From assembly GCF_036884655.1 (NCBI RefSeq), contig NC_088344.1, positions 33,852,501 to 33,916,500 on the forward strand: a stretch of 64,000 nt of DNA. The letters are read 5' to 3'. Shown in pieces: positions 2,891-62,150 of the stretch. Every line of letters begins with the position of its first letter. The first letter of the stretch is position 1. The position numbers were made by a program, and so were the translations under genes. The DNA comes from Musa acuminata AAA Group. Its lineage: Eukaryota > Streptophyta > Magnoliopsida > Zingiberales > Musaceae. The notes beneath the pieces are model-generated. The model was not told where the DNA came from. It saw nothing but the letters and a program-made list of their open reading frames with translations, and ran no database searches.

Positions 2891-3809
2891 TGCTAGTCAT
2901 AAGTGCCCAGCAAGCCAATCACGTGAGTGATGGCACGTGTGACTTGATACAGAATCTTTTTGCTTATTATATTTTGGCGTATATCACTTTATAACTATTG
3001 CATAAATGCATATGTATTGTGATGTCCTTGGATTTGTGCAATGGGAATCGGATCGTGATGAGATCACGATAATGAGATCGATTCACCTTTAAACACATAT
3101 CCTAAATAATCCCGGTCATAGGTTACTCGAGAGGGACATCGTGATAACCGGATAGACTGGTGTGCTGTATACCCGTCCATATAATGGATGCAGCTGGTCT
3201 CATAGCTGCTCGTGTAGGGACACTAGGGATACAGTACAGGTGCTCATTGGAGAATGAGTTCACTGATTGATCCGCTTACGGAATGCTGGATGGTTGATGA
3301 TGCCTTATTGTCAGACAACGATTCCGTAGTCCTAGTGGTGTATCTGGTTCTTAGACTTGAGACACCAAGGATGTCCTGTATGAGTGCTCCACTCTTTGAT
3401 ACCAGACTTATAGGTTTGGATGTTCCCAGATCTAGTACAGCTGGTCATTGGGAGTGAGAGCCGACCTAGCATTAGGGCAGGGTGAGAGGGCTCGAGTAGG
3501 AAAGGGCTATCCGTGGATGGAGTCAGAGAACTCATCACGGCGTGGAGCCACCATTGAGTTAAACCTCACATGCACTATGCTAGGGTTCGATCTGGGATAT
3601 GTCGGGCCTTGACGAGGACGTCAAGCTAATTGAGTTGGGGATAGTGTAATATCCCATTAGTCCCACATCGGAAATGGGGAATGTGTATGATTAGTTTATA
3701 AGGGCCTGATGAGTGTACTACGTCACCTCCCGCTTAAGCATTTTGGTCCGCCGTTGAGGACCAAAATGGAGTTATTGGCCAGTTAACTCATCAGACCCGG
3801 GTCGAAACA
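2891..3809 (+). repeat. Hybrid 5' LTR of the full-length Copia element
   Basis: Positions 2891 to about 3457 match the 3' LTR almost base for base. From about 3458 the sequence is unrelated until the primer-binding site. It is 919 bp against 1498 bp for the 3' LTR. The replacement removes the TATAAATAGG promoter box seen in the 3' LTR at 10691 and supplies another AT-rich box, TTTATAAGGG, near 3697. The unlike 5' and 3' ends would be expected to hinder strand transfer in reverse transcription. Confidence 0.9.
3645..3809 (+). mobile_element. TRIM-like short LTR embedded in the hybrid 5' LTR
   Basis: A 165-bp unit with TG...CA ends: TGTAATATCCC at 3645 and GGGTCGAAACA ending 3809. It is preceded by a purine-rich GAGTTGGGGATAG that looks like a polypurine tract, and followed directly by a primer-binding site. 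It contains TCCCACATCGGAA, frequent in plant LTRs, and an 11-bp perfect hairpin at 3739-3768. The region 3458-3644 would be the 3' internal end of the same short element. The TRIM label is an inference from size and structure. Confidence 0.6.
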
Positions 3810-3810
3810 G

Positions 3811-3828
3811 TGGTATCAGAGCCAGGTT
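3811..3828 (+). promoter_or_regulatory. Primer-binding site, initiator tRNA-Met
   Basis: TGGTATCAGAGCCAGGTT begins one base after the LTR end and is the complement of the 3' end of plant initiator tRNA-Met, the usual Copia minus-strand primer. The same sequence follows the LTR at 63649. Confidence 0.95.
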
Positions 3829-3899
3829 GTTCGTGCGAATGATTGGTTTTGAACTGCGTGTGTTGTGTTTAGGAAGAATATTGACGTCAAAATAGCGAG

Positions 3900-4378
3900 G
3901 AAGGGCAGCAATAGTTGCTGCCCTCGATCTGCATGCCTGCAGCCACCTGCAGCGGCAGCCGCAGCCGCAGCCAGGCAGCACAGCGCCGGCGCATGCGCAA
4001 GCGCTGTGCCTGCAGCAGCCGGCCGGCGGCCTGCTTGCAGCAGGCTTGCTGCCGGCGGGGCTGGCAACCCACGGGCAGAGGCGCCGCAGGGCAGCGGCGC
4101 CTACCGCCGAAAGGAAGCGGCGCCTGCCGCCGCAGGGCAGCGACGCGCGACGCCTGCCGCCGCTGCTCCCGCGGGCGAAACCCCCCCCACAGGGGCGGCC
4201 GCCCGGCGGGACAGCACCGCCTGCGGAGGCAGCGGCGCCCGAAGAGGGCGCCCACCCGCAGCGGCATCGCCGCCAGCGGGCGTGCCGCCTGCAGGCGAGG
4301 GCAGTGCCCTCGCCCCGCCGCACAGGCCGCCGCCGGCAGGGTGGCGGCGGCGGCAGCAGCGAAAAGGGGAAAGGGTAT
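3900..4378. other. Extremely GC-rich block in the Copia leader
   Basis: About 480 bp rich in GCAGCC, GGCGCC and GCCGCC words, in strong contrast to the AT-rich surroundings. Long frames are open on both strands, which is expected of GC-rich repeats, and I do not regard them as genes. The same block begins at about 63750 in the second young copy, so it is a family feature, not a local insertion. Confidence 0.8.
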
Positions 4379-4786
4379 TAGGGTTTTCTGCGCAAAAGAT
4401 AGTTTTGCCCCTCGGAATTTGAGAAATTCCAGTTTCTGTCTTTTGTCCAAATTACGAAAATACCCTTAGGAATTGAGAAATTCCCTATATATCCCTGATT
4501 TCAGAAAATATTAATTAATTAAAAGGTTTAGTTGATTATTATTTTTATTATTATCTACTAGTCCTACATGATGATGATTATTTATACATGTGATGTATGA
4601 TGAGTGGACGGATGATCATGGACCGTGTGATGTGTGTACTTGTGATTATTATTATTGAGGTCTGCGAACCTCCATTATATTTCTCGTTTATTGTCGGGCC
4701 TGCGTGCCTATGATTAAGTTGTAATCACATGAGGAGGCGCAGCGGGAGCGTGGAAGCCATAGCGGGACCCACGAGACGGACGATCG

Positions 4787-4861
4787 TGATGCATGGAGAT
4801 GCATCAAGATGTCGACGGAACCGACGAGGACGAGATGGACGATCACAAGGCATGGAGATGC
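4787..4861 (+). other. Two leader stem-loops with GGAG loops
   Basis: TGATGCAT (4787-4794), loop GGAG, ATGCATCA (4799-4806) form a perfect 8-bp stem. A second, weaker one, GCAT-GGAG-ATGC, lies at 4850-4861. Both follow a repeated GGACGATC and sit in the untranslated leader ahead of gag. Confidence 0.55.
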
Positions 4862-5151
4862 ACCGTTGCACACATAGATCTTGATGTGAGTGATTAGGCC
4901 TACTGGCTCGGGCCTAATCATATTAGGTTGTGGTCCATGATCATCTGGTGTGATTGCTTATACACATACTAGATATGTATATATATTTGCATGCGATGTA
5001 GATATATATTAAATATGTATATGTGTGACATGTCATATTAGGAGACCAAATCATAGAAACATCTCTCGATAATATTAAGTCGGTAAACGTGAGGCAATTA
5101 GATTGACCCACGTGGCCTTCCATCGTTATGAGTAGGAACCGAATCCCGGTG

Positions 5152-5464
5152 TAGGTTGAGTTGGTCGAGTCCCTCGAGACTCACCTATATCGCGATTCAC
5201 TATCTTGCTTACGACATAGAGATGTCACCGGTGACCTGAGGGCATGATATGCTTGGTCGAGTCCCTCGAGGGTATATCATCAAATCAGACTCATCTTGTA
5301 ACGAAGGTGTTGACTTAACCGAGCATCATGGTTGGTCGAGTCCCTCGAGGCCATGGTGATTCGGAGGCCGAACAGGACGGGAATCACAAGGAGTTGTGAT
5401 CGGCAAGAGTTGTCTACCTTTTAGGCTTAGTGTGATTGGTCGAGTCCCTCGAGGTTACACTAAG
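5152..5464 (+). other. Array of four stem-loops with an identical core in the Copia leader
   Basis: The 18-nt core TTGGTCGAGTCCCTCGAG occurs at 5161-5178, 5253-5270, 5332-5349 and 5436-5453. Within it TCGAG pairs with CTCGA around a TCC loop. Outside the core each copy has a different but self-complementary stem. The stems are 5152-5161 with 5179-5187 (one bulge), 5244-5252 with 5271-5280, 5324-5331 with 5351-5358 (8 bp, one G-U), and 5426-5435 with 5455-5464 (10 bp, one G-U). The array lies between the primer-binding site and the gag start at 5650, where packaging or dimerisation signals of retroelements usually sit. The function is unknown. Confidence 0.85.
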
Positions 5465-5491
5465 ACGCTGATTGGATCCTGATCCCCACTA

Positions 5492-5538
5492 GAAGTCTGC
5501 CGGAGACTTCCGTTTCACGTGCTGAGGGTGTCGCGTGA
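5492..5538 (+). other. Further leader stem-loops just before gag
   Basis: GAAGTCT (5492-5498) pairs with AGACTTC (5504-5510) around a 5-nt loop. TCACG at about 5515 can pair with CGTGA ending near 5538. They continue the run of hairpins upstream and end about 110 nt before the gag start. Confidence 0.5.
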
Positions 5539-5649
5539 CTCGTTAGTAAAATAGTGGGAGCATATTAAGATAGAAGTCCATATCTTGATAGTTTATTTCT
5601 TGCAAAATTTGCATGTTATTCATTTTTGCTACATCTTTATTTTCAGAAA

Positions 5650-8600
5650 ATGTCGTTTTCAAATCCCTTACGTGGCATACTTGATGTCAACCGCCTCACT
5701 GGTCCAAATTATACGGATTGGCTCCGTAACTTGAGAATTGTTCTCACAGCGGAGAAAATCGTGTACGTCCTTGATACAGTGATGCCTACGCCCGAAGAAG
5801 GGGCAAGCGAGGATGAGATCGCTCGCTACGTGAAGTACATTGATGACTCCACTCTTGCTCAGTGCTATATGTTGGGCTCTATGACTCCAGAGTTACAGAG
5901 ACAACATGAAAAGATGGATGCCAGATCCATTCTCCTACATGTCCGCAAATTGTTTGAGGAACAGGGAAGGACTCAACGATATGAGATATCCAAGAGCCTT
6001 TTCTGCACTAGGATGACTAAGGGGACACCGGTTCAGAACCATGTCCTAAAGATGATTGAGTGGATAGAGAAACTCACAGGTCTAGGAATGGTCCTAGAGG
6101 ATAACTTGTGTGTGGATATTGTGCTTCAGTCCCTACCAGATTCCTTTTCACAGTTCATAATGAATTTTAATATGAACAAGCTTGAGGTGACTCTCCCAGA
6201 GCTCCTCAATATGTTGAGGGAGGCAGAGAGTACTATTAAGAAAGAGAAGCCAGTTCTCTACACTAGTGAGACCAGAAAGAAAAGGAAAGCTGAAAGGTCC
6301 CTTAAGAAGGGAAAGGGCAAGGGCAAACAAGGTAAAGCAAAGGTTGCTAAGAAAGACCCAACAAAGGACAAAGGCCAGTGCTTCCACTGTGGTAAAGATG
6401 GGCACTGGAAGAGAAACTGCAAAGAGTACCTTGCAGAAAGGGCAAAACAAAAGCTTGATGAAGCTTCAGGTACATTCATGATCAGTCTCCATTTGTCAGA
6501 CTCTTATGATAACACATGGGTATTAGATACCGGTAGTGCTTATCATATATGTAATTCGTTGCAGGTTCTAGCAAGGCCTAGGAGACTAGAGAGAGGCGAG
6601 ATGGACCTCAAGATGGGTAATGGAGCAAAAGTTGCTGTATTAGCTGTTAGCGAGGTCGCCCTACATCTGCCTAGTGGAGCTTTTATTGCATTAGATGCAT
6701 GTTATTTTGTTCCTTCTATTATCAAAAACATTATCTCCATTTCATGTTTAACAGTTAGTGGATATAAATTTGTTTTTGAGAACAATGGTTGTTCGATATT
6801 ATTAGATGATAAGATCATCACGAAAGGAACATTGCATAATGGTTTATTTATGTTAGACACTACTCCACATATCATGAATGTAAATGTGTCTAAGAGGAAA
6901 CGAGATGAGTTGAACAGTGCATACCTGTGGCATTGTAGACTAGGTCACATCCATGAAAGAAGGATTCAAAAGTTGCTAAATGATGGATATCTAGATCCAT
7001 TCGACTATGTGTCATATGCAACTTGTGAGCCTTGCATTCGTGGAAAACTGACCAACTCTCCATTTAGTGGAACTGGAGAGAGAGCCACTGAGTTGTTGGA
7101 ACTCATACATAGTGATGTATGTGGACCCATGTCAACTCATGCCATTGGAGGTTACTCCTACTTCATTACATTTACTGATGATTTCTCAAGGTATGGATAT
7201 GTGTACTTAATGAAGTACAAGTCCGAGGCCTTTGAGAAATTCAGAGAGTATAAGAATGAGGTGGAGAATCAGACTGGAAAGAGTATCAAAACTCTTCGAT
7301 CAGATCGAGGAGGTGAGTACTTAAGTACAGAGTTTACTCACTTCCTCAAGGACCATGGGATATTATCCCAATGGACACCTCCTTATACACCTCAGCTCAA
7401 TGGTGTCTCTGAAAGGAGAAATCGTACATTATTAGATATGGTACGGTCCATGATGAGTTTCGCTGACCTACCCATCTCATTCTGGGGATATGCCCTAGAA
7501 ACCGCAGCTTACCTTCTGAACAGAGTTCCAACTAAGTCGGTGGTGTCTACACCATATGAGATATGGAAAGGGAAGAAGCCTGATCTTAAAGTAGTTAAGA
7601 TTTGGGGCTGCTCTGCCCATGTTAAAAGACACAACCCCGATAAGTTAGAATCAAGGACAAGGCGATGTAAATTTGTGGGATACCCCAAGGAAACTTGTGG
7701 GTATTACTTCTATCATCTCGAGGACCAAAAGGTCTTTGTAGCTAAGAGAGCAGTGTTCCTTGAGAAGGAACACATTCTTGACGGAGACAGTGGGAGAATG
7801 ATAGAATTGAGCGAGGTTGGAGAACCAAGCTCAAGCACCACTCTACAGCCCGAGTCTGTTCAGGTATCTAATACACAAGTTTCAACTTTACGCAGGTCTG
7901 ATAGAGTATCCCATCCTCCTGAGAGATATGTGGGACATATTAGAGCAGAGGATGTAGAGGATATTGATCCTCAGACCTACGAGGAGGCTATTATGAGTAT
8001 AGACTCCGGGAAGTGGAAAGAAGCCATGAATTCTGAGATGGATTCTATGTACTCCAATAAGGTTTGGAACCTAGTTGATGCACCCGAAGGTATTGTACCC
8101 ATCGGTTGCAAGTGGATCTTTAAGAAAAAGATCGGAGTAGATGGAAAGGTAGAGACCTATAAAGCAAGGCTAGTGGCTAAGGGGTATCGTCAAAGGCAAG
8201 GTGTTGACTACGACGAAACTTTCTCACCCGTAGCAATGCTAAAATCCATCAGAATTCTATTGGCTATTGCAGCACACTATGATTATGAGATCTGGCAGAT
8301 GGATGTGAAAACCGCATTCCTCAACGGGAACCTGGAGGAGGAGGTGTATATGATGCAACCTGAGGGATTCGTGTCCAAGAACTGCCCAGATAAGGTGTGT
8401 AGGTTGCTTAGATCCATTTATGGACTAAAGCAAGCTTCCCGAAGTTGGAACATAAGATTTGATGAGGCAATCAGATCTTATGACTTCGTTAAGAACGAAG
8501 ATGAGCCTTGTGTATACAGAAAGGTAAGTGGGAGCGCTATTAGCTTTTTGGTATTATATGTGGATGACATCCTCATCATTGGGAATGACATAGGAATGCT

Positions 8601-9543
8601 ATCCACAATAAAGGCTTGGTTATCTAGACACTTCTCCATGAAGGACTTAGGAGAAGCATCTTATATCTTGGGGATTAGAATCTATAGAGATAGATCCAAA
8701 AGGATGCTTGGCTTGTCCCAGTCCAGGTACATAGAAACTATTGTCAAAAGGTTTGGCATGGAAAATTCCAAAAGAGGTCTCATACCGATGAGACATGGGA
8801 TATCGCTTTCTACGAGTATGTCCCCAAAGACTCCAGAAGAAAGGGCGAACATGGATATGATACCTTATGCCTCAGCAATAGGGTCTATCATGTATGCCAT
8901 GCTATGTACTAGGCCTGATATAGCGCATGCTCTGAGTGTCACGAGCAGGTATCAGGCGGATCCAGGCTTGGAGCACTGGAAAGCAGTAAAGTGTATCCTT
9001 AAGTACTTGAGAAGGACTAAGGATCTTTTACTAGTATATGGAGGTAATAGCCTTAAGGTTGAAGGCTACACTGACTCAAGTTTTCAGTCTGATGTCGATA
9101 ATAGCAAGTCGAATTCAGGGTATGTGTACACCTTGAATGGAGGAGCAGTATGCTGGAAGAGTTCCAAGCAAGATACCACTGCTGACTCGACCACAGAGGC
9201 GGAGTACATTGCTGCATCAGATGCAGCAAAGGAGGGAGTCTGGTTGAAGAAGTTCATCACAGATTTGGGAGTCGTGCCAGATAGTGAGGAGCCGATTTCC
9301 CTATATTGCGACAACAACGGGGCAATTGCTCAAGCGAAGGAACCTAGGTCTCATCAGAAATCTAAGCATGTTCTGAGGAGGTTCCACCTTATTAGAGAGA
9401 TCGTGACCCGAGGAGATGTAGCAATGGAAAGAGTTCCATCCGAAGATAACATTGCAGATCCACTAACAAAGCCATTGTCTCAGATTGTCTTTGAGCATCA
9501 CAGGGGTCTGATGGGGATCAGACACATAGGTGATTGGCTTTAG
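5650..9543 (+). CDS. Copia gag-pol polyprotein, intact
   Basis: A single frame of 1297 residues. I chose the ATG at 5650 (MSFSNPLRG); an upstream TTG is open in frame but unlikely. The gag part carries a CX2CX4HX4C zinc knuckle at about residues 244-257. The protease has an Asp-Thr-Gly motif at 293-295 ([12 protein letters not shown]). The integrase follows with its Zn-binding HHCC segment near 425-470 and a DDE core ([26 protein letters not shown]) between about 487 and 590. Reverse transcriptase has KARLVAKG and YVDD at 970-973. RNase H has the DSS and TEAEYIAAS segments near 1135-1190. The integrase-before-RT order places it in Ty1-copia. No stop or frameshift is visible, so the protein could be functional even though the hybrid 5' LTR may block mobilisation. 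Confidence 0.97.
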
Positions 9544-9545
9544 GT

Positions 9546-9557
9546 CAAGTGGGAGAT
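9546..9557 (+). promoter_or_regulatory. Polypurine tract
   Basis: CAAGTGGGAGAT lies directly before the 3' LTR start (TG at 9558) and just after the gag-pol stop. It is the expected primer for plus-strand synthesis. Confidence 0.85.
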
Positions 9558-11055
9558 TGCTAGTCATAAGTGCCCAGCAAGCCAATCACGTGAGTGATGG
9601 CACGTGTGACTTGATACAGAATCTTTTTGCTTATTATATTTTGGCGTATATCACTTTATAACTATTGCATAAATGCATATGTATTGTGATGTCCTTGGAT
9701 TTGTGCAATGGGAATCGGATCGTGATGAGATCACGATAATGAGATCGATTCACCTTTAAACACATATCCTAAATAATCCCGGTCATAGGTTACTCGAGAG
9801 GGACATCGTGATAACCGGATAGACTGGTGTGCTGTATACCCGTCCATATGATGGATGCAGCTGGTCTCATAGCTGCTCGTGTAGGGACACTAGGGATACA
9901 GTACAGGTGCTCATTGGAGAATGAGTTCACTGATTGATCCGCTTACGGAATGCTGGATGGTTGATGATGCCTTATTGTCAGACAACGATTCCGTAGTCCT
10001 AGTGGTGTATCTGGTTCTTAGACTTGAGACACCAAGGATGTCCTGTATGAGTGCTCCACTCTTTGATACCAGACTTATAGGTTTGGCTGTTCCCAGATCT
10101 AGTACAGCTGGTCATTGGGAGTGGTAGTCGACCTTACGAGGGCTATTGAGTGTCGATAGAGGATCATCCACTCTCGGTATCATGAGAGGAATATCCCATG
10201 TGTTCTTGCTCAGACAAATCCCTGGCCAGGGTCATTCGGGTTGAGAGAGAAAGAGTTCTCCGGGAGAATCCGATTAGAGCGAGACTCGAGTAGAAACCGT
10301 ATGGGTCTGACAGCACCATGCTCGATATACGGTCTCTGGGATATTAGATGGATGAGGGACTAAAGGTACATGGTAACTGAGGACAGACAGGTCCAATGGA
10401 TTGGATTCCCCTGTATCGTCTGGGGACTACGGCGTAGTGGCCTAGTACTTCCGTAGTCGATGAGTCGAGTGAATTATTACAGAGATAATAATTCACTTAG
10501 TTAGAAAGAGTTCTGACAGGTATGACTCACGGCCAGCTCGATATTGGGCCTAGAGGGTCACACACATATGGTAGGCATTGCGATGAGTAGAGGTTCGGAT
10601 ATGAGATATCCGACGGAGCCCTTGTCTTATTGGATGCAGATCCAATACCCACTAGGGAAAGGACCCATTAGGGTTTTGACACGGGATCTCTATAAATAGG
10701 AGGGATTCACAGCCTCATAGGCTAGAGTCTTTGCTTGCCCTTCCTATTCTCCTCTCCCTCTCCACCTTAGAGTAGGCCTGGAGTTTTGAGGAGCGTCGTC
10801 GCAACCCTGCTATGTGGATCACCGCTAGAGAGGAGGACGCTTGACCTCCTTCACCCTCTCCTAAGGATCTGCAAGGAAACAGGGATATACGATCTCCCTA
10901 GGTAACACAATCTCTATACGCAGTTTTGTGTTTTTGCGGATTTTGCGCACCAATCTTCGCACGACGATGAACATCTTTTTGGGAATCGGGGATTTTTTTG
11001 TTTTCTTGTTCTTCCGCTGCGCATATGATGTCGCCCCCCCTATGATTTCCCAACA
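9558..11055 (+). repeat. 3' LTR of the full-length Copia element
   Basis: 1498 bp, TGCTAGTC...CCCAACA. It is nearly identical to the LTR at 62151-63647, with scattered single differences. It contains CTCTATAAATAGG at 10689-10700, a good TATA box for the element promoter, about 365 bp before the LTR end. Transcripts would then start near 10720. The GTAAG duplication follows directly. Confidence 0.96.
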
Positions 11056-12063: not shown

Positions 12064-12068
12064 CCAAT

Positions 12069-12136
12069 TCCTAGTCATAGGTGCCTTATAAGCCAATCAC
12101 GTGAGTGATGATGTGTATGACATGACATGCATGTGA

Positions 12137-12227
<91 letters not shown>

Positions 12228-13554
12228 GATATCAATGGATTTATGGAATGAGAATTAAATTGTGATGAGATCATGATAATAAGATCGATTCGTCTTTAAA
12301 CATAAACCTTAAATAATCCTGGTCATAGGTTACTCGAGAGAGACATTAAGATAACCGGACAGACTAATGTACCGTATATCCATCCATATGATAGAGGCGG
12401 TTGGTCTCATAGTTGCTCATGTGGGAACAATAGGGATATAATGTAGGTGCTCATTAGAGAATGAGTTCATTAATTAATTCGCTTATGAATTTTGATACTA
12501 GACTTAGAAATCTGGAAGTTTCAAATCCAATACAACTAGTTATCGGGAGTGGTAGCTAATCTTATAAGGGCTATTGAGTATCGATAGATGATCATTCACT
12601 CTCAGTGTCATGAGAAGAATATCTCATATGTTCTTGCTCAAACAAATCTCTGGCCAGAGTTATTCAAATTGAGAGAGAAAGAGTTTTCCAAAAGAATTCA
12701 ATTAGAGTGAGACTTGAGTAGAAATCGCATGGGCATTATAGCACCATGCCCGGCATATGGTTTCTAGGATATTAAATGGATGAGGGACTATAGGTATACA
12801 GTAACTGAGGATAGACATATCCAATGGATTGGATTCCCCTGTATCATTTGGGGACTACAATATAGTGACCTAGTACATTTGCAATCAATGATTCGAGTGA
12901 ATTATTATAGAGATAATAACTTACTAATCCAGAAGGAGTTATGACAGGTATGACTTATGGCCAGCTCGATATTGACATGTATGACTTACAACCAGCTCGA
13001 TATGCAACGAGTAGAGGTTTAGATATGAGATATTCGTTGGAGCTCCTATCTTATTAGATATCTAATAAGTCCTTGAATTATTGGATCCTATAGATAAGAT
13101 CAAATAAGAGCCAATGAGAAATTATTGGGCAGAGATCTACTAATCTAAGAGGCTTTGGTAGTTTGATGGAGATCTAATACCCAATATGACTGGATCCATT
13201 AGGGTCAAGTTGATAGGGGGACCTCTATAAATAAGAGAGAACCAAATGACCATTGGCTAGGCCCATATGGAAATTTAGGCAGCGATTTAAGAAGTATTTT
13301 CATAGCCCCTACCGTGTGGATCATCGCTAAAGAGGAGGATAGTTGACTTCCTTTATCCTCTCCTATAGATTTATAGGATATTAGGGTTATATGATCTCCC
13401 TAGGTAAAACACATCTCTCTTATACACGTAGTTTTTTATTTTATGATTTTTGCATATCAATCTTTGCACGATGATGAAACATTTTCGTGAAAATTTTTAA
13501 AAAAAAATTTTGTTCTTCTATTGTGTATGTGATGTCATCCTAGATTTTCCTACA
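12069..13554 (+). mobile_element. Solo LTR of Copia family A, duplication CCAAT
   Basis: It matches the family A LTR from its start (TCCTAGTCATAGGTGCC, the terminal TG mutated to TC) to TTCCTACA at 13554. It has a perfect target duplication, CCAAT at 12064-12068 and 13555-13559. A long (TA)n tract occupies about 12138-12225. It sits inside the gypsy relic. Confidence 0.92.
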
Positions 13555-13559
13555 CCAAT

Positions 13560-15206
13560 TGCTGGGCTAATTACGATAGAAGAGGGATAATATTTTGTAT
13601 TATTCCGGCCAATGTTGTATTTGGTGAGTGAGGTTGAGAAAGGCATCGACAGGGACAAGGATGTGCCCCGTGCTTGATCCCGAAGGAGATGGACCAAGGT
13701 TATTGAGTAGACGTTGATGGCATCCTGATGCCTATGCCGAGGTGGAAGCATCCGCCTACAGAAAAGGAGGTGGCTATCATTCCTATCTAAAGGCGTTAAT
13801 TGCAAGTGGTGGCGCTTCCTCACTAGGGCATTCAAGGTCGATGGGTGGGTGTTCTTGCAATATTTAAGCCCTCATTCTAGCACCAAAATATTTTTATTTA
13901 AGTGTAATTGATCAGGAGGTCAACATGGCTTGATTTAGTCTTGAAAGCACAAACCCAACCTAGAAGCCCAAACTGATAGCTAGGGTAAAATTCGAGAATA
14001 AGACTAGGGTAGCAATATACTCTTAAGACTTTACTAGCTTGCGGTGACCGACTTGTGATTCTTAGAGGTGTGATTTGTCTACTAAAAGAAGTTTGGAGTC
14101 ATTCCAAGGTACACATTAGCCTAGTCAAGGGATGCTTCGCATCATCTCAAGGTATTCCTTAGATGCACGAGACTCCTACACAATTGGTCAGTGTTAGGAG
14201 ACTTCCCAACTCGACCCCTCCAATGATTAAGTCAGTCAAGAAAGTAGAGAGGTTTAGAAGGGCTCAAGAGAGTATTTTATGGTCTTTATTTTTCTTCCTC
14301 TCTTGACTGGTTTTGGGGTTCAACTTTGATACCTGATTTGTTGGCAAAGGGTGGCTGGCTACTTATTCTCCTCTTTTCAGCTTCTTGTGTTGTCTAAGAG
14401 TTAATTTATATCAAAGGTTAATAAATACAACAACATCAAAGAAGAGTGTCCAAGGGTTTACCATTTCTTAAGGTAGGGGCATGTTCAAAATGGATAGGGG
14501 ATGGGGATCAACATCAGGTGCCCGAAGAGTTGGGTCATGCCGTCAAGAATTAATGCTCCCTGCGATTAATTATGCAACCCCTTTCAAAATCATGGCTAAG
14601 GGCAACGAATCGTTGGAGACTAATGATCGGGGTGGGGGGAAGCTAAGAGGTATGATGGTGCGATAAAGGCGAAACTAAGAGATTGGGCCTGATTGTCATA
14701 TTCCAATGACTATTTTGTGTGACTTCCCATGTGAGGGGACAACGTGAGCCCTTATGTTGATCCTAAGTGGTAGCCCAACACTAGATGAATCATAAGTGCT
14801 ATGCTTGTATCATTATTTTTCCTATCATCTATTGAGATATGCCTATATATATCTAATTTGTGTAAGGTCTTAAGTTGTATAGGTATACAAAAATAAAGTC
14901 AAGAAATAATTAAATAGAAATATTAAAATTATTAAATCAATCAGGGGTGATAAATAGAACTAATCATTATTCTAGTTCTTTTACTATGCTCCTAGGATAG
15001 CAAGGTATTTATGCTCAATATCTTACCAAATATATCTTACCAAATATATCATAACATAATAAGATTATTGAAAGGTGAAATCATATTATTATGGAAACTT
15101 TGATAAATGTTTATGTACTTGAATCGATGTGAGGAGAAGATGATTATGTATATTTTGAATAAGATTCATAGTAAGTTAATTACATCAACTTTTTTTAAGT
15201 TATAGA
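13560..15206 (-). mobile_element. Continuation of the gypsy relic toward its 5' end; no gene
   Basis: The sequence resumes directly from 12063 after the solo LTR (GGGCCAATTgctgggc). The minus strand up to about 13850 is open in places and would be gag N-terminal sequence. Near 14310-14345 the minus strand reads GCCAACA followed by AGGTATCAAAGTTGAACC, which resembles an LTR end and primer-binding site, so 14341 onward may be the 5' LTR. From about 14800 it is AT-rich, with nothing else recognisable. Confidence 0.45.
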
Positions 15207-15211
15207 CCACC

Positions 15212-16822
15212 TGTTGGGAAATCTTAGGGGAGACATCACATGCGTAGCTGAAGAACAGAAAACAAAATTCACAATTCCCAAAGATATGTTCATTGTCGTG
15301 CGAAGATTGGTGCACAAAAATCTACGAAATAGAAAATCACGTGTGAGATAGATTGTGTTACCTAGGGAGAGAGTATATCCCTGAATCCCTATAGATCTCT
15401 AGGAGATGGTGAAGGAGGTCAAGCACACTCCCCTCTAGCGGTGATCCGCACAACAGGGCTGTGATGACGCTCCTCAAAACTTCATGCCTGCTCTGAGGTA
15501 GAGAGGGGGAGGAGAATAGGAGAGGAAGCAAAAAACTTAGTCTATATAAACTATTGAAACCCTTATATTTATAGAGGTCCCCTGTCAACTTAACTCTAAT
15601 GAATCCTCCCCTATTGGGTATTGGATCTCCATCCAACTATCCAAGCCTCTTAGATTAGTGGATCTCTATCTAATAATCTCTCATGAGCTCTTATTAGATC
15701 TCATCCATAGGATCCAATAATTCAAGGGCTTATTGGATATCCAATAAGATAGGGGCTCCGACGAATATCTCATATTCGAACCTCTACTCATCGCAATGCC
15801 TATCATATGTGTGTGACCCTTTAGGCCCAACATCGAGCTGGTCATGAATCATATCTATCAGAACTCCTTCTAGCTCAATGAATTATTATTTCTAAAATAA
15901 TTTACTCGACTCATCGATTGTAGATATACTAGGCCACTACGCCGTAGTCCCTAGATGATACAGGAGAATCCAATTCATCGAACATGTCTGTCCTCAATTA
16001 CCGTGTACCTATGGCCCCTCATCCATCTAATATCCCAAAGACCGTATACTGGGTATGGTGTTGTCAGACTCATATAGTTTCTACTTGAGTCTCGCTCTAA
16101 TCAGATTCTCCCGGAGAACTCTTTCTCTCTCAATCCGAATGACCTTGGTCAAGGATTTATTTGAGCAAGAACACATAAGGCATTCCTCTCGTGACACCGA
16201 GAGTGGATAATGATCCTCTATCGACACTCAATAACTCTCGTAAGGTTGACTACTACTCCCGATGACCGGTTGTGCTAGATTTAGGACATCCAAACCTATA
16301 AGTTCGGTACCAAAGAGTGGAGCACTCATACAAGATATCCTTGGTGTCTCAAGTATAAGGACCAGATACACCAATGGGACTACGAAATCGCTGTCGACAA
16401 TAAGGCATCATCAACCATTCAAGATTCTGTAAGTGAATCAATCAGTGAACTCATTCCCCAATGAGCACATGTATTGTATCCCTAGTGTCCCCACACAAGC
16501 AACTATGAGACTAGTTACATCCATCATATAGACGGGCATATAACACACCAGTCTGTCCGGTTATCTCGATATCCCTCTCGAGTAACCTATGATCGGAATT
16601 ATTTATGATATATGTTTAAAGGCGAATCGGTCTCATTATCGTGATCTCGTCATGATTCGATTCCCATTACACATATTCAAAGACATCACAATATATATAT
16701 GCATATATATAACAAGCAATATAAAGTGATAAATACCAAAATATAATAAGCAAAAAGACTGTGTGTCAAGTCATACGTGTCATCACTCACGTGATTGGTT
16801 TGTAGAGCACCTATGACTAGCA
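15212..16822 (-). mobile_element. Solo LTR of Copia family A, inverted
   Basis: The reverse complement runs from TGCTAGTCATAGGTGC (16822 downward) to GATTTCCCAACA (15212), the same ends as the young LTRs. The flanks are CCACC (15207-15211) and CCACT (16823-16827), a target duplication with one mismatch. No internal sequence is attached. Numerous substitutions show it is older than the 9558 and 62151 copies. Confidence 0.9.
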
Positions 16823-16827
16823 CCACT

Positions 16828-17349
16828 AACTTCAGATATCTTTATATTTAGAATTGTTCTGTAAAGATAATTATCTTTAATTCATAATAGGACAGATTTC
16901 TAAATATTTTATTGGTTATCTAAAAAAAATTAAAAAGGTATAGATTTTATTGCTCTAATCATAATAGGACAATAATTAAATTTGATAATATGATATTCTT
17001 AAAAAATAATAAATTAATGGGAGTGAAAATATCAAAATTTAATCTTGATATTAAGGATATACTGGTTGATACTTTTTTATTATTTTTTATTTGAAAAATT
17101 ATTATTTTATCAAATAACTAAATAATTTGATAAAGACGAATAACAAAATAATATGAACTCACACATAATATTGATATTGCTGTTGATGAACTTGTAGAAT
17201 AAATCATAATTGATACTTTTGAAAATATCTCAAAAGAAAAGGAGACTTTTTATTTTTTTTTATCAATTATACAATTCACAAGAATCAGATATAGAAATTA
17301 AAATAATCTCTTATTGTTTTCACAAGTTTAAGTAAAGGAATGGTATATG
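16828..17349. other. AT-rich spacer, nothing recognised
   Basis: Strongly AT-rich sequence with short poly-A and poly-T runs. I see no frame, RNA or clear repeat here. It may be the more decayed upstream part of the Copia relic that follows. Confidence 0.5.
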
Positions 17350-18100
17350 AGAACTTGTAATAAAATAAGAGTTAAAATCAATAAGCTAGAATGGTATATG
17401 AGAACTTGTCAAATTACCCAATAACTATAAAAGAGTCTGTTATATAAATATGACTCAAAATGTAATATCAAATGATATAATGATCAGACTTGTGGTCAAA
17501 TGTTTTACTCATCAAGAATACATCGATCATACTGAGATATTTTTTTTTATTTTTTAAATAAATTTATTAAGAATCATCATGATATTAGTGGTTCATTATG
17601 ATTTTAAGTTATATCATATAGATACGAAAATAAGTTTTTTGAATAGGGATATGGATTTATATGGGTTAACCTAAATGATTTATAGATAAAATAAAAAAAT
17701 ATATAAATTTTGATATGCAAATTTAAGAAGTCCATTTATGACTTTAAACAAGCTTATAAACAATAGTATATAAAATTTCTTAATATCATTACTTCATTCA
17801 TATTTAAAAAAAATACTATTGATCGATATTTATATTTAAAGATAAGTGAAAATAAGTTTATTATATTGGTCTTATATATAGATAATATTTTGTTTATCGA
17901 TAGTGATCTTGTTTTATTACATTAAACTAAGAAATTTCTCACCATGAATTTTAAGATTATTGATATGAATAAGGTATATTATATTATTAACATTAATATA
18001 TTTATGGATAGATCTCAATGATTATTATGACTGTCTCATAAAGAATATATTGAGTAAATCTTGAAGAGATTTAATATATGGTTTTATTTAGTAAATGACC
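17350..18100 (+). pseudogene. Heavily decayed Copia reverse-transcriptase relic
   Basis: Pieces in shifting frames spell out the Copia RT. Near 17490 is RLVVKCFTHQEYIDHTEIF (family consensus RLVAKGFTQxEGIDYxETF). Near 17570 is RIIMILVVHYDFKLYHIDTKISFLN. Near 17850 is FIILVLYIDNILFIDSD, where YIDN stands in the place of YVDD. Then come FKIIDM and SHKEYIE. Stops and frameshifts are frequent, and most changes replace C or G by T or A. It is a different, much older copy than family A. Confidence 0.8.
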
Positions 18101-18154
18101 AAGGCATGCTTATTAATAAGTGTTGTCACCGAACTATCTTTGACATTAAAGTTT

Positions 18155-19580
18155 ATAAACTATATACATATAGTGTGTCACCGAACTCAAAAGTTATTAG
18201 ATACATATTAATAAGTCAATATTTTATTATTATTGGTGTGAACATGAAGGCTTACGAGGAATTATCCACTTTGGGTAAGCCCACACAGTTTTGCCTTTTC
18301 GAAATGAGCCCAAAAAAGAGTCTATAAGAGCAAGATGCTAGAGGCTTATAAGCTCTTAGTTTTTCTACTCCTCAACCAATATGAGACTAAATAATATCCT
18401 ATTAATGCCTCCCATTATGGGAGTCGATGACTCATGGCTTTTCTTTTAACGCTATATTGATAAGTTAATATTTTGTCATCATTGGTGTGAGCACGAAGAC
18501 TCGCGAGGAATTATCCTTATTAGTGCCCCCCAATAAAAGAGTTAGAGGTTCAGGCCCTCCTTCTCGTACTATGATAAATCAACATTTTATCCTTATTGGT
18601 ACGAGCACGAAGGCTCATAAGGAATTATTTGCTTTGGCTAGGCCTGCATGGTTTTACCATTTCGGGGTAAACCTCAAAAGACATCTCTGAGGGTAAGGGA
18701 TATGCTAGAGGCTTATAAGCCCGTAGTTGTCTCATTCCTCAATCATTGTAGGACTAAATATTCTTATCAGTGCCCCCCCCACCTCCAGCTCTTCTTCTAG
18801 CGTCATTATGATAATTCAATATTTTATCATCATTGATGCAACCGTGAATGCTTACAAGGATTTGTCTGCTTTAAGTGAGGTCGCACGATTTTTTCCTTTC
18901 GAGGTGTGTCCCAAAAGGTGTCTCTGAGAGTAAAAGTGATCCTAGAGGCACCTTTTGGGGCTTATCCCGTAAGGGCAAAATCGTGCAGGCTCACCTAAAG
19001 TGGATAATTTCTCGTGAGCCTTCATTCTCACACAATTAATGATAAAATATTAACGTATCATAATGGCGTTAGAAGAATGATCATGAGCCCTTTGGCTCCC
19101 CTATTAGAAGGGCATTGATAAGTACATTTAGTCTCACATTGGTTGAAGAGTAGAGAAACCAAGAGCTTATAAGCCTATAGCATCACTCTTTCTCTCAAAT
19201 ATGTCTTTTGGGATTCACCCCGAAAGGACAAAGTCATGCGGGGGCTCACCCAAAATAGAGAATTCCTCGCGAGCCTTTGTGCTCGCACCAATAACGATAA
19301 AATATTAACTTATCAAAATAGGAAGGGCTATGAGGCCTTGGCTCTCCTACTAAGGGGATTAATTAAGATATTGAGTTTCATATTAATTGAGGAATAAGGG
19401 AACCAATCGCTTATAAACCTCTAATATCACCCTTACTTTTAGAGGCTCCTTCATAGGCTTACCCAAAGCAAATGATTCATCACGAGCCTTCATGCTTACA
19501 TTAATTATGATAAATATTGACTTATCAACATGTATCTCTCAACTTTTGAGTTTGGTGATAGCTCTATATGTATATAGTTT
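18155..19580. repeat. Large imperfect inverted repeat built of direct sub-repeats
   Basis: The left arm (18155 to about 18930) holds related units around 18231, 18480, 18594 and 18832, each with TTGGTGTGAGCACGAAGGCT-like sequence followed by a GAGGAATTAT-like box. The right arm (about 18945-19580) carries the reverse complement of the same units near 19003, 19262 and 19470. Its outer end (TATATGTATATAGTTT at 19565-19580) mirrors the left outer end (ACTATATACATATAG near 18160). The centre near 18935 is itself a hairpin (CCCAAAAGGTG / CACCTTTTGGGG). No coding capacity is convincing. It resembles a foldback element. Confidence 0.75.
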
Positions 19581-62112: not shown

Positions 62113-62150
62113 GTTCAGATCTTTCCGAATCTACGTTTTGACGTAAAACT

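Follow-up and report, generated by a model that had tools for sequence, protein, structure and literature searches.

A Copia Element with a Predicted Leader Structure

The analysed stretch of banana DNA, 64,000 nucleotides long and called the window here, contains a retrotransposon that spans 2891-11055, both LTRs included, with a GTAAG duplication at both outer ends (Table 1). With integrase ahead of reverse transcriptase, a single frame and a copia-type gag, it is a Ty1/copia LTR retrotransposon, and Pfam places Retrotran_gag_2 at 29-199, rve at 484-581 and RVT_2 at 803-1047 of the gag-pol frame. A preliminary description of this DNA considered the element intact, and its TG...CA LTRs, 5-bp target duplication, tRNA primer site and gag-pol frame, as a Ty1/copia LTR element has them, agree with that view except in one respect: by comparison with the 3' LTR, the 5' LTR is evidently chimeric after 3467 and not a normal full-length repeat, as the segment 3468-3809, which reaches up to the primer site, has no match to the 3' LTR. 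By eye, this segment terminates as a second LTR-like end adjoining the primer site. The primer-binding site, TGGTATCAGAGC, is presumably of the initiator-tRNA-Met type, and its pattern occurs within the window at 3811 and 63649 only. A second copy of the element (L058) starts at 62150; its array falls immediately outside the window end. Three further stretches (1063-2758, 12068-13540 and 15206-16822) resemble the LTRs in diverged form and are probably solo LTRs.

The Gag protein carries its CCHC knuckle at residue 244, preceded by a stretch of 48 residues (196-243) that holds 20 lysines and arginines. Two near-copies of gag exist in the protein collection, at 96 and 97% identity, while among named proteins the nearest come from Ensete ventricosum, at 76-78%. 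Among 18 aligned copies, five (L060, L062, L066, L068 and L070) have ATA in place of the gag ATG (5650-5652), perhaps forming a subfamily without its own gag start, and the text of PMC3735527 describes the BARE2 subfamily without a gag start. The leader includes a GC-rich segment (3880-4360, up to 83% GC per 100 nt) and, near 4171-4410, strong predicted structure on both strands; the GC-rich part also has long upstream frames.

Table 1. Positions of the element's parts and of the leader hairpins in the window
Feature	Position	Strand	Remarks
5' LTR, 5' part	2891..3467	+	99.1% identity with 3' LTR
Primer-binding site	3811..3822	+	TGGTATCAGAGC
Untranslated leader	3823..5649	+	about 1.8 kb, numerous upstream ATGs
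Hairpin 1	5149..5190	+	core 5161-5178; single bulged T in 5' arm
Hairpin 2	5245..5279	+	core 5253-5270
Hairpin 3	5324..5358	+	core 5332-5349
Hairpin 4	5426..5464	+	core 5436-5453
Acceptor-like tract	5622..5646	+	predicted; pyrimidine-rich, ending CAG, 3 nt before gag ATG
gag-pol	5650..9543	+	single frame: gag, one CCHC knuckle, integrase, reverse transcriptase
3' LTR	9558..11055	+	about 1.5 kb, TG...CA, then GTAAG target duplication

Four Hairpins Share One Core

The last third of the leader holds exactly four copies of an 18-nt core, TTGGTCGAGTCCCTCGAG, with start-to-start distances of 92, 79 and 104. Allowing up to 3 mismatches, the window contains no further match, and 100 shuffles gave 0. 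The claim that four identical cores lie within the leader is thereby borne out, as is the proposed self-fold of TCGAG with CTCGA around a TCC loop: all four local folds display a common tip, composed of a bulged GG, five pairs UCGAG/CUCGA and a UCC loop, which sits atop a lower stem. Local-fold z-scores are -3.68, -1.71, -3.17 and -3.41 for hairpins 1-4, so that hairpin 2 by itself is unremarkable. Predicted folding of the region 5130-5649 surpasses that of all 100 shuffles (z -5.70), which provides, as a prediction, the structured RNA in the leader near gag that is typical of psi-type signals. Five 120-nt windows across 5131-5490 yield z-scores of -1.4 to -3.5 on the sense strand versus -0.8 to 0.2 on the antisense strand; taken whole, 5130-5480 gives -3.75 versus -2.69.

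No Rfam family, the iron-responsive element included, matches the window at the gathering score, and three sub-threshold matches over 3800-5700 all fall outside the array. A tRNA likeness of the array was rejected, as the window is without any tRNA found, and a coding role of the core was dismissed as well, since the frames are short and the core is identical at synonymous sites too.

The tip itself bears on two other readings of the array. Self-complementary parts of the core could pair between two genomic RNAs and link them as a dimer, in keeping with the palindromic CTCGAG and with the text of PMC516450, where retroviral RNAs are linked by GACG loops and palindromes. In the predicted fold, however, the palindrome is itself base-paired and only three bases, those of the loop, stay unpaired, while four copies might equally pair inside one molecule, which leaves dimer linkage improbable. 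The hairpins might alternatively control translation, as a ribosome barrier or landing structure in the 1.8-kb leader. This is unlikely, in that a barrier would require stability and not four invariant 18-nt tips; the leader's numerous upstream ATGs do fit it, as does the union of structure, shunt and packaging in pararetroviral leaders described in the text of PMC5902531.

Lower Stems Matched within Each Hairpin

In each hairpin the core is surrounded by nine consecutive base pairs of standard type, giving 36 of 36 cells when the one bulged T in hairpin 1 is skipped, with two or three pair types at each of the nine positions. When the 5' and 3' arms are combined, own partners reach energies of -11.4, -8.6, -11.0 and -12.1 (hairpins 1-4), arms with the partners of other hairpins are never better than -6.0, and the true assignment is the best among 24. 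The earlier proposal of distinct self-pairing stems around an invariant core is upheld by these results. Own-arm energies are matched or beaten at 0.4 to 2.1% of 20,000 window positions; within the leader, which is partly very GC-rich, the same energies are not rare, occurring at 5 to 15% of positions.

Allowing G-U and one bulge, the stems are 13, 10, 12 and 10 pairs long in hairpins 1-4, lengths attained at 0.2 to 1.1% of positions across the window and at 0.06 to 1.4% of those in the leader. Under Watson-Crick pairing only they shrink to 8, 7, 5 and 9, and hairpin 3 becomes ordinary, its run of 5 being equalled at 7% of window positions. The striking feature is the four hairpins in combination, not each singly. 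Four matched stems are more than a transcription-factor site repeated at the DNA level would need, and stems this short suit a silencing hairpin feeding small RNAs poorly; although a maize study relates local structure, both in genes and in transposable elements, to small RNAs (PMC10760457), the two explanations together are very improbable.

Outside the core, the flanks of the four copies offer no clear homology, and the lower stems are unrelated to one another in sequence. Across 12 comparisons of flanks, the top two local scores were equalled by 22 and 33 of 500 shuffles, and the rest by at least 148. This agrees with the claim that the arrangement is unlike a simple tandem duplication. The 36 cells include 6 G-U and 0 A-C pairs, an excess that points, as modest evidence, to an RNA of the sense strand; three of the six G-U pairs occupy the position adjoining the core.

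These pair types also bear on a mutational origin, in which the self-complementary core would seed strand switching by reverse transcriptase and one flank would be copied into the other in the absence of selection. Such a process predicts perfect complements that then decay equally to G-U and A-C, whereas six and none are seen, an argument weakened by the one shared position that accounts for three of the six. Strand switching also leaves the four identical cores and the slow core change described below unexplained. In its favour, the stems within the family have no excess of pairing-keeping variants; altogether its probability is judged low.

The Array Recurs Across Family Copies

Over the 1.53-Gb assembly, in which the window occupies C18:33852501-33916500, the exact core has 22,503 matches, compared with 2 for the reversed pattern used as a control. 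The first 100 listed places, all in C1, form 35 groups, of which 15, 6, 8 and 6 have four, three, two and one exact cores, respectively, the count for the final, incomplete group being a lower bound. Every multi-core group among these places fits the 92/79/104 grid. Since copies found via the core are biased upward in core conservation, the rate test drew on copies selected by gag instead. Among the 22 copies fetched through gag similarity, at a tolerance of 3 mismatches in one batch and 4 in the other, 20 retain all four cores, one (L105) has three owing to a deletion in hairpin 2, and one (L112) shows no match. In the sampled copies, hairpin number, order and spacing thus look like family features, in agreement with the expectation that the array is regular.

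Individual copies vary in several ways. The core is preceded by T in 61 genomic matches, each with a hairpin-2-like flank on at least one side by eye. A shared G-to-T change at 5154 breaks a pair of hairpin 1 in 5 of the 21 copies covering that site, and two of these five are 98% identical to the window. Copy L069 is rearranged, with pieces of the hairpin 3-4 region present more than once.

A sister family with a diverged array was sought with three gag proteins (one Ensete, one Curcuma and one other), each scoring 148-150 places among 16,000-19,000 candidates, and none was reached among the matches listed. Leaders from the first query were family A in 14 of 15 cases, with one lacking a match, and those from the second in 7 of 7; some places from the third are known family A copies, and its remaining places are assumed to be family A too. 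In IMG/VR, 32 stretches contain one core 16-mer each and none contains two; among GTDB contigs, 17 contain one core 18-mer each and, again, none contains two. By a rough estimate these hits are taken as chance. Searches of viral contigs with pieces of gag and reverse transcriptase found no relatives.

A Slowly Changing Core and Uninformative Covariation

Covariation was assessed in an alignment of 31 copies plus the window, comprising 29 distinct rows with a mean column identity of 96%; L063, L066, L067, L069, L071 and L112 were left out before the counts, and L113-L119 are absent from this alignment. The hope that genomic copies would display covarying pairs was not realised: 0 of 65 pairs are altered on both sides, the score equals that of its shuffles, and pairing is kept by 16 of 33 unique outer-stem variants versus 47% expected (p 0.51). 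For unique inner-stem variants the figure is 7 of 18 versus 45% expected (p 0.76). Covariation is uninformative here because the family copies are too alike. The unique variants themselves number 18 in the inner stems versus 29.7 expected, and 33 in the outer stems versus 39.3.

Of two outcomes named beforehand as counting against selected structure, neither is clear-cut. Outer-stem complementarity is not generally lost, as 98.2% of 1,879 cells remain paired across the sampled copies, a value that falls to 37-48% when partners are slid by 1-3 columns, a drop expected of any structure derived from one alignment row. Free mutation of the stems is partly seen: in the gag-selected copies, outer stems differ in 31 of 1638 non-CpG cells, about the background rate, while the core changes more slowly at non-CpG sites. 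Counted per cell, 68 of 114 changed cells remain paired versus 53% expected (p 0.09); this leans toward stem selection while scoring related copies repeatedly, and the unique-variant count does not lean. The within-family copies neither support nor refute stem selection, and most differences among them are taken as decay after insertion.

The slower change of the core was measured in the 21 copies selected by gag, where 7 of 1169 non-CpG cells of the core differ versus 132 of 7432 outside the hairpins, about three times slower than the surrounding leader (Fisher p 0.0016, a test that, like the cell counts, overstates independence among related copies). Core CpG sites, at 9 of 334 versus 41 of 924, are not significantly slower (p 0.19). 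Additionally, the 22,503 genomic cores amount to 5,626 for each of the four sites, presuming an even spread, versus 4,475 and 4,091 for two control leader 18-mers, which were matched for CpG number and picked after the conservation counts in the 21 copies had been seen. One of the two is the best-conserved control, counted in 17 of 21 copies, against 18, 15, 19 and 17 for the cores. Because cross-copy covariation gave nothing, the support for a selected structure is the four paralogous stems together with the slow core.

Splice-Like Sites around the Array

The acceptor-like tract before gag could place the array in a candidate intron, and hence on genomic RNA only; this is an idea drawn from the sequence. 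Among 18 aligned copies, two have CAA for CAG and one is without the tract. By a home-made score, the top donor-like site of the leader is 5272 (5269-5277), in the 3' arm of hairpin 2, and the next is 5356, likewise in a 3' arm, that of hairpin 3; if the hairpins form as modelled, they could mask both. By the same score, the leader has no compelling splice donor.

On this point turns the possibility of a nuclear export or host-protein element, in which the repeated tip would recruit a host protein that binds RNA and exports or stabilises its unspliced form. Its anatomy would be the same as that of a recognition array, RNA export elements of mouse IAP and musD are described in the text of PMC12786077, and the acceptor-like site lies 3 nt upstream of the gag ATG. 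The best donor, 5272, is unremarkable, however, as sites scoring equally well recur roughly every 0.7 kb in the window, and a pattern search (requiring AG ahead of AAAATG, two non-T positions and a near-exact gag start, so that some could be missed) found no genomic copies with an alternative junction before the gag ATG. An export element is accordingly rather doubtful.

Likeness to Known RNA Signals

Several known RNAs resemble parts of the array. Transferrin-receptor mRNA in animals bears multiple iron-responsive elements, which present a fixed bulge and loop on variable stems and are read by protein, but they have another loop and bulge and stand in the 3' UTR of a host gene. The GACG-loop packaging and dimer signals of gammaretroviruses, as described in the text of PMC516450, share with the array the leader position and repeated hairpins with the same exposed motif; theirs is a tetraloop, whereas the banana hairpins share 18 nt including bulge and upper stem, known by prediction. 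BARE1 and BARE2 of barley are likewise plant Copia elements with a single frame, and PMC3735527 mentions that BARE2 has conserved signals for dimerisation and packaging. The main text of that source, however, does not contain the term 'stem-loop' and describes no repeated hairpin array, and it places BARE splicing inside the gag region and not upstream of gag.

A functional RNA structure in plant Copia RNA is also exemplified by the ENE motif of Evade (Copia93) in Arabidopsis, which acts together with the poly(A) tail to stabilise the RNA (PMC12501189) and involves no leader array. In the structured leader of CaMV, the packaging signal includes a coat-protein-binding site, though the text of PMC5902531 describes a single exposed site, carried by one large stem. 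In the titles and abstract openings examined in the open literature, no comparable array in the leader of a plant Copia element was found, with subscription literature mostly outside this scope. What appears to be new here is the array variant, whereas packaging-type or recognition hairpins in retroelement leaders are of an already known kind.

A Putative Recognition Array on Genomic RNA

Protein-binding hairpins often combine a constant bulge, upper stem and loop with lower stems that can be exchanged. The same tip on four different matching stems suggests a repeated protein docking site, perhaps for the element's own coat protein, and it is probable that together the four hairpins act as a multivalent recognition array within its genomic RNA. 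The tip, with its GG bulge, 5-bp upper stem and UCC loop, would be the part that is read, while the lower stems would be exchangeable and merely present it.

Packaging is the best guess for the function because the nearest candidate reader is Gag, with its CCHC knuckle and lysine- and arginine-rich stretch. The reader may accordingly be the element's own Gag, with its lysine-rich stretch and single knuckle, and the four sites would help to pick genomic RNA for packaging. That Gag reads the array and that four sites help select genomic RNA is a tentative step, held with somewhat less than even confidence, and the whole explanation, joining array, Gag as reader and packaging, also falls a little short of an even chance. 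More speculative is a tetravalent hairpin code for Gag in this plant Copia family of thousands of copies, with each site on its own lower stem, that might mark genomic RNA for packaging.

How plant retrotransposons select their own RNA for packaging seems to be little known; a 2025 review treats this choice in terms of RNA pools and granules, and the words 'stem-loop', 'hairpin' and 'secondary structure' do not occur in its main text (PMC12786077). If the proposed reading is true, the banana element would provide a packaging signal of a plant retrotransposon that could be recognised from its sequence alone, in an array built like a natural series of coat-protein operators. Paralogous hairpins within one RNA are informative where family copies are too alike for covariation, and if Gag is the partner, this compact repeated RNA motif would make the RNA choice of plant retrotransposons directly testable.
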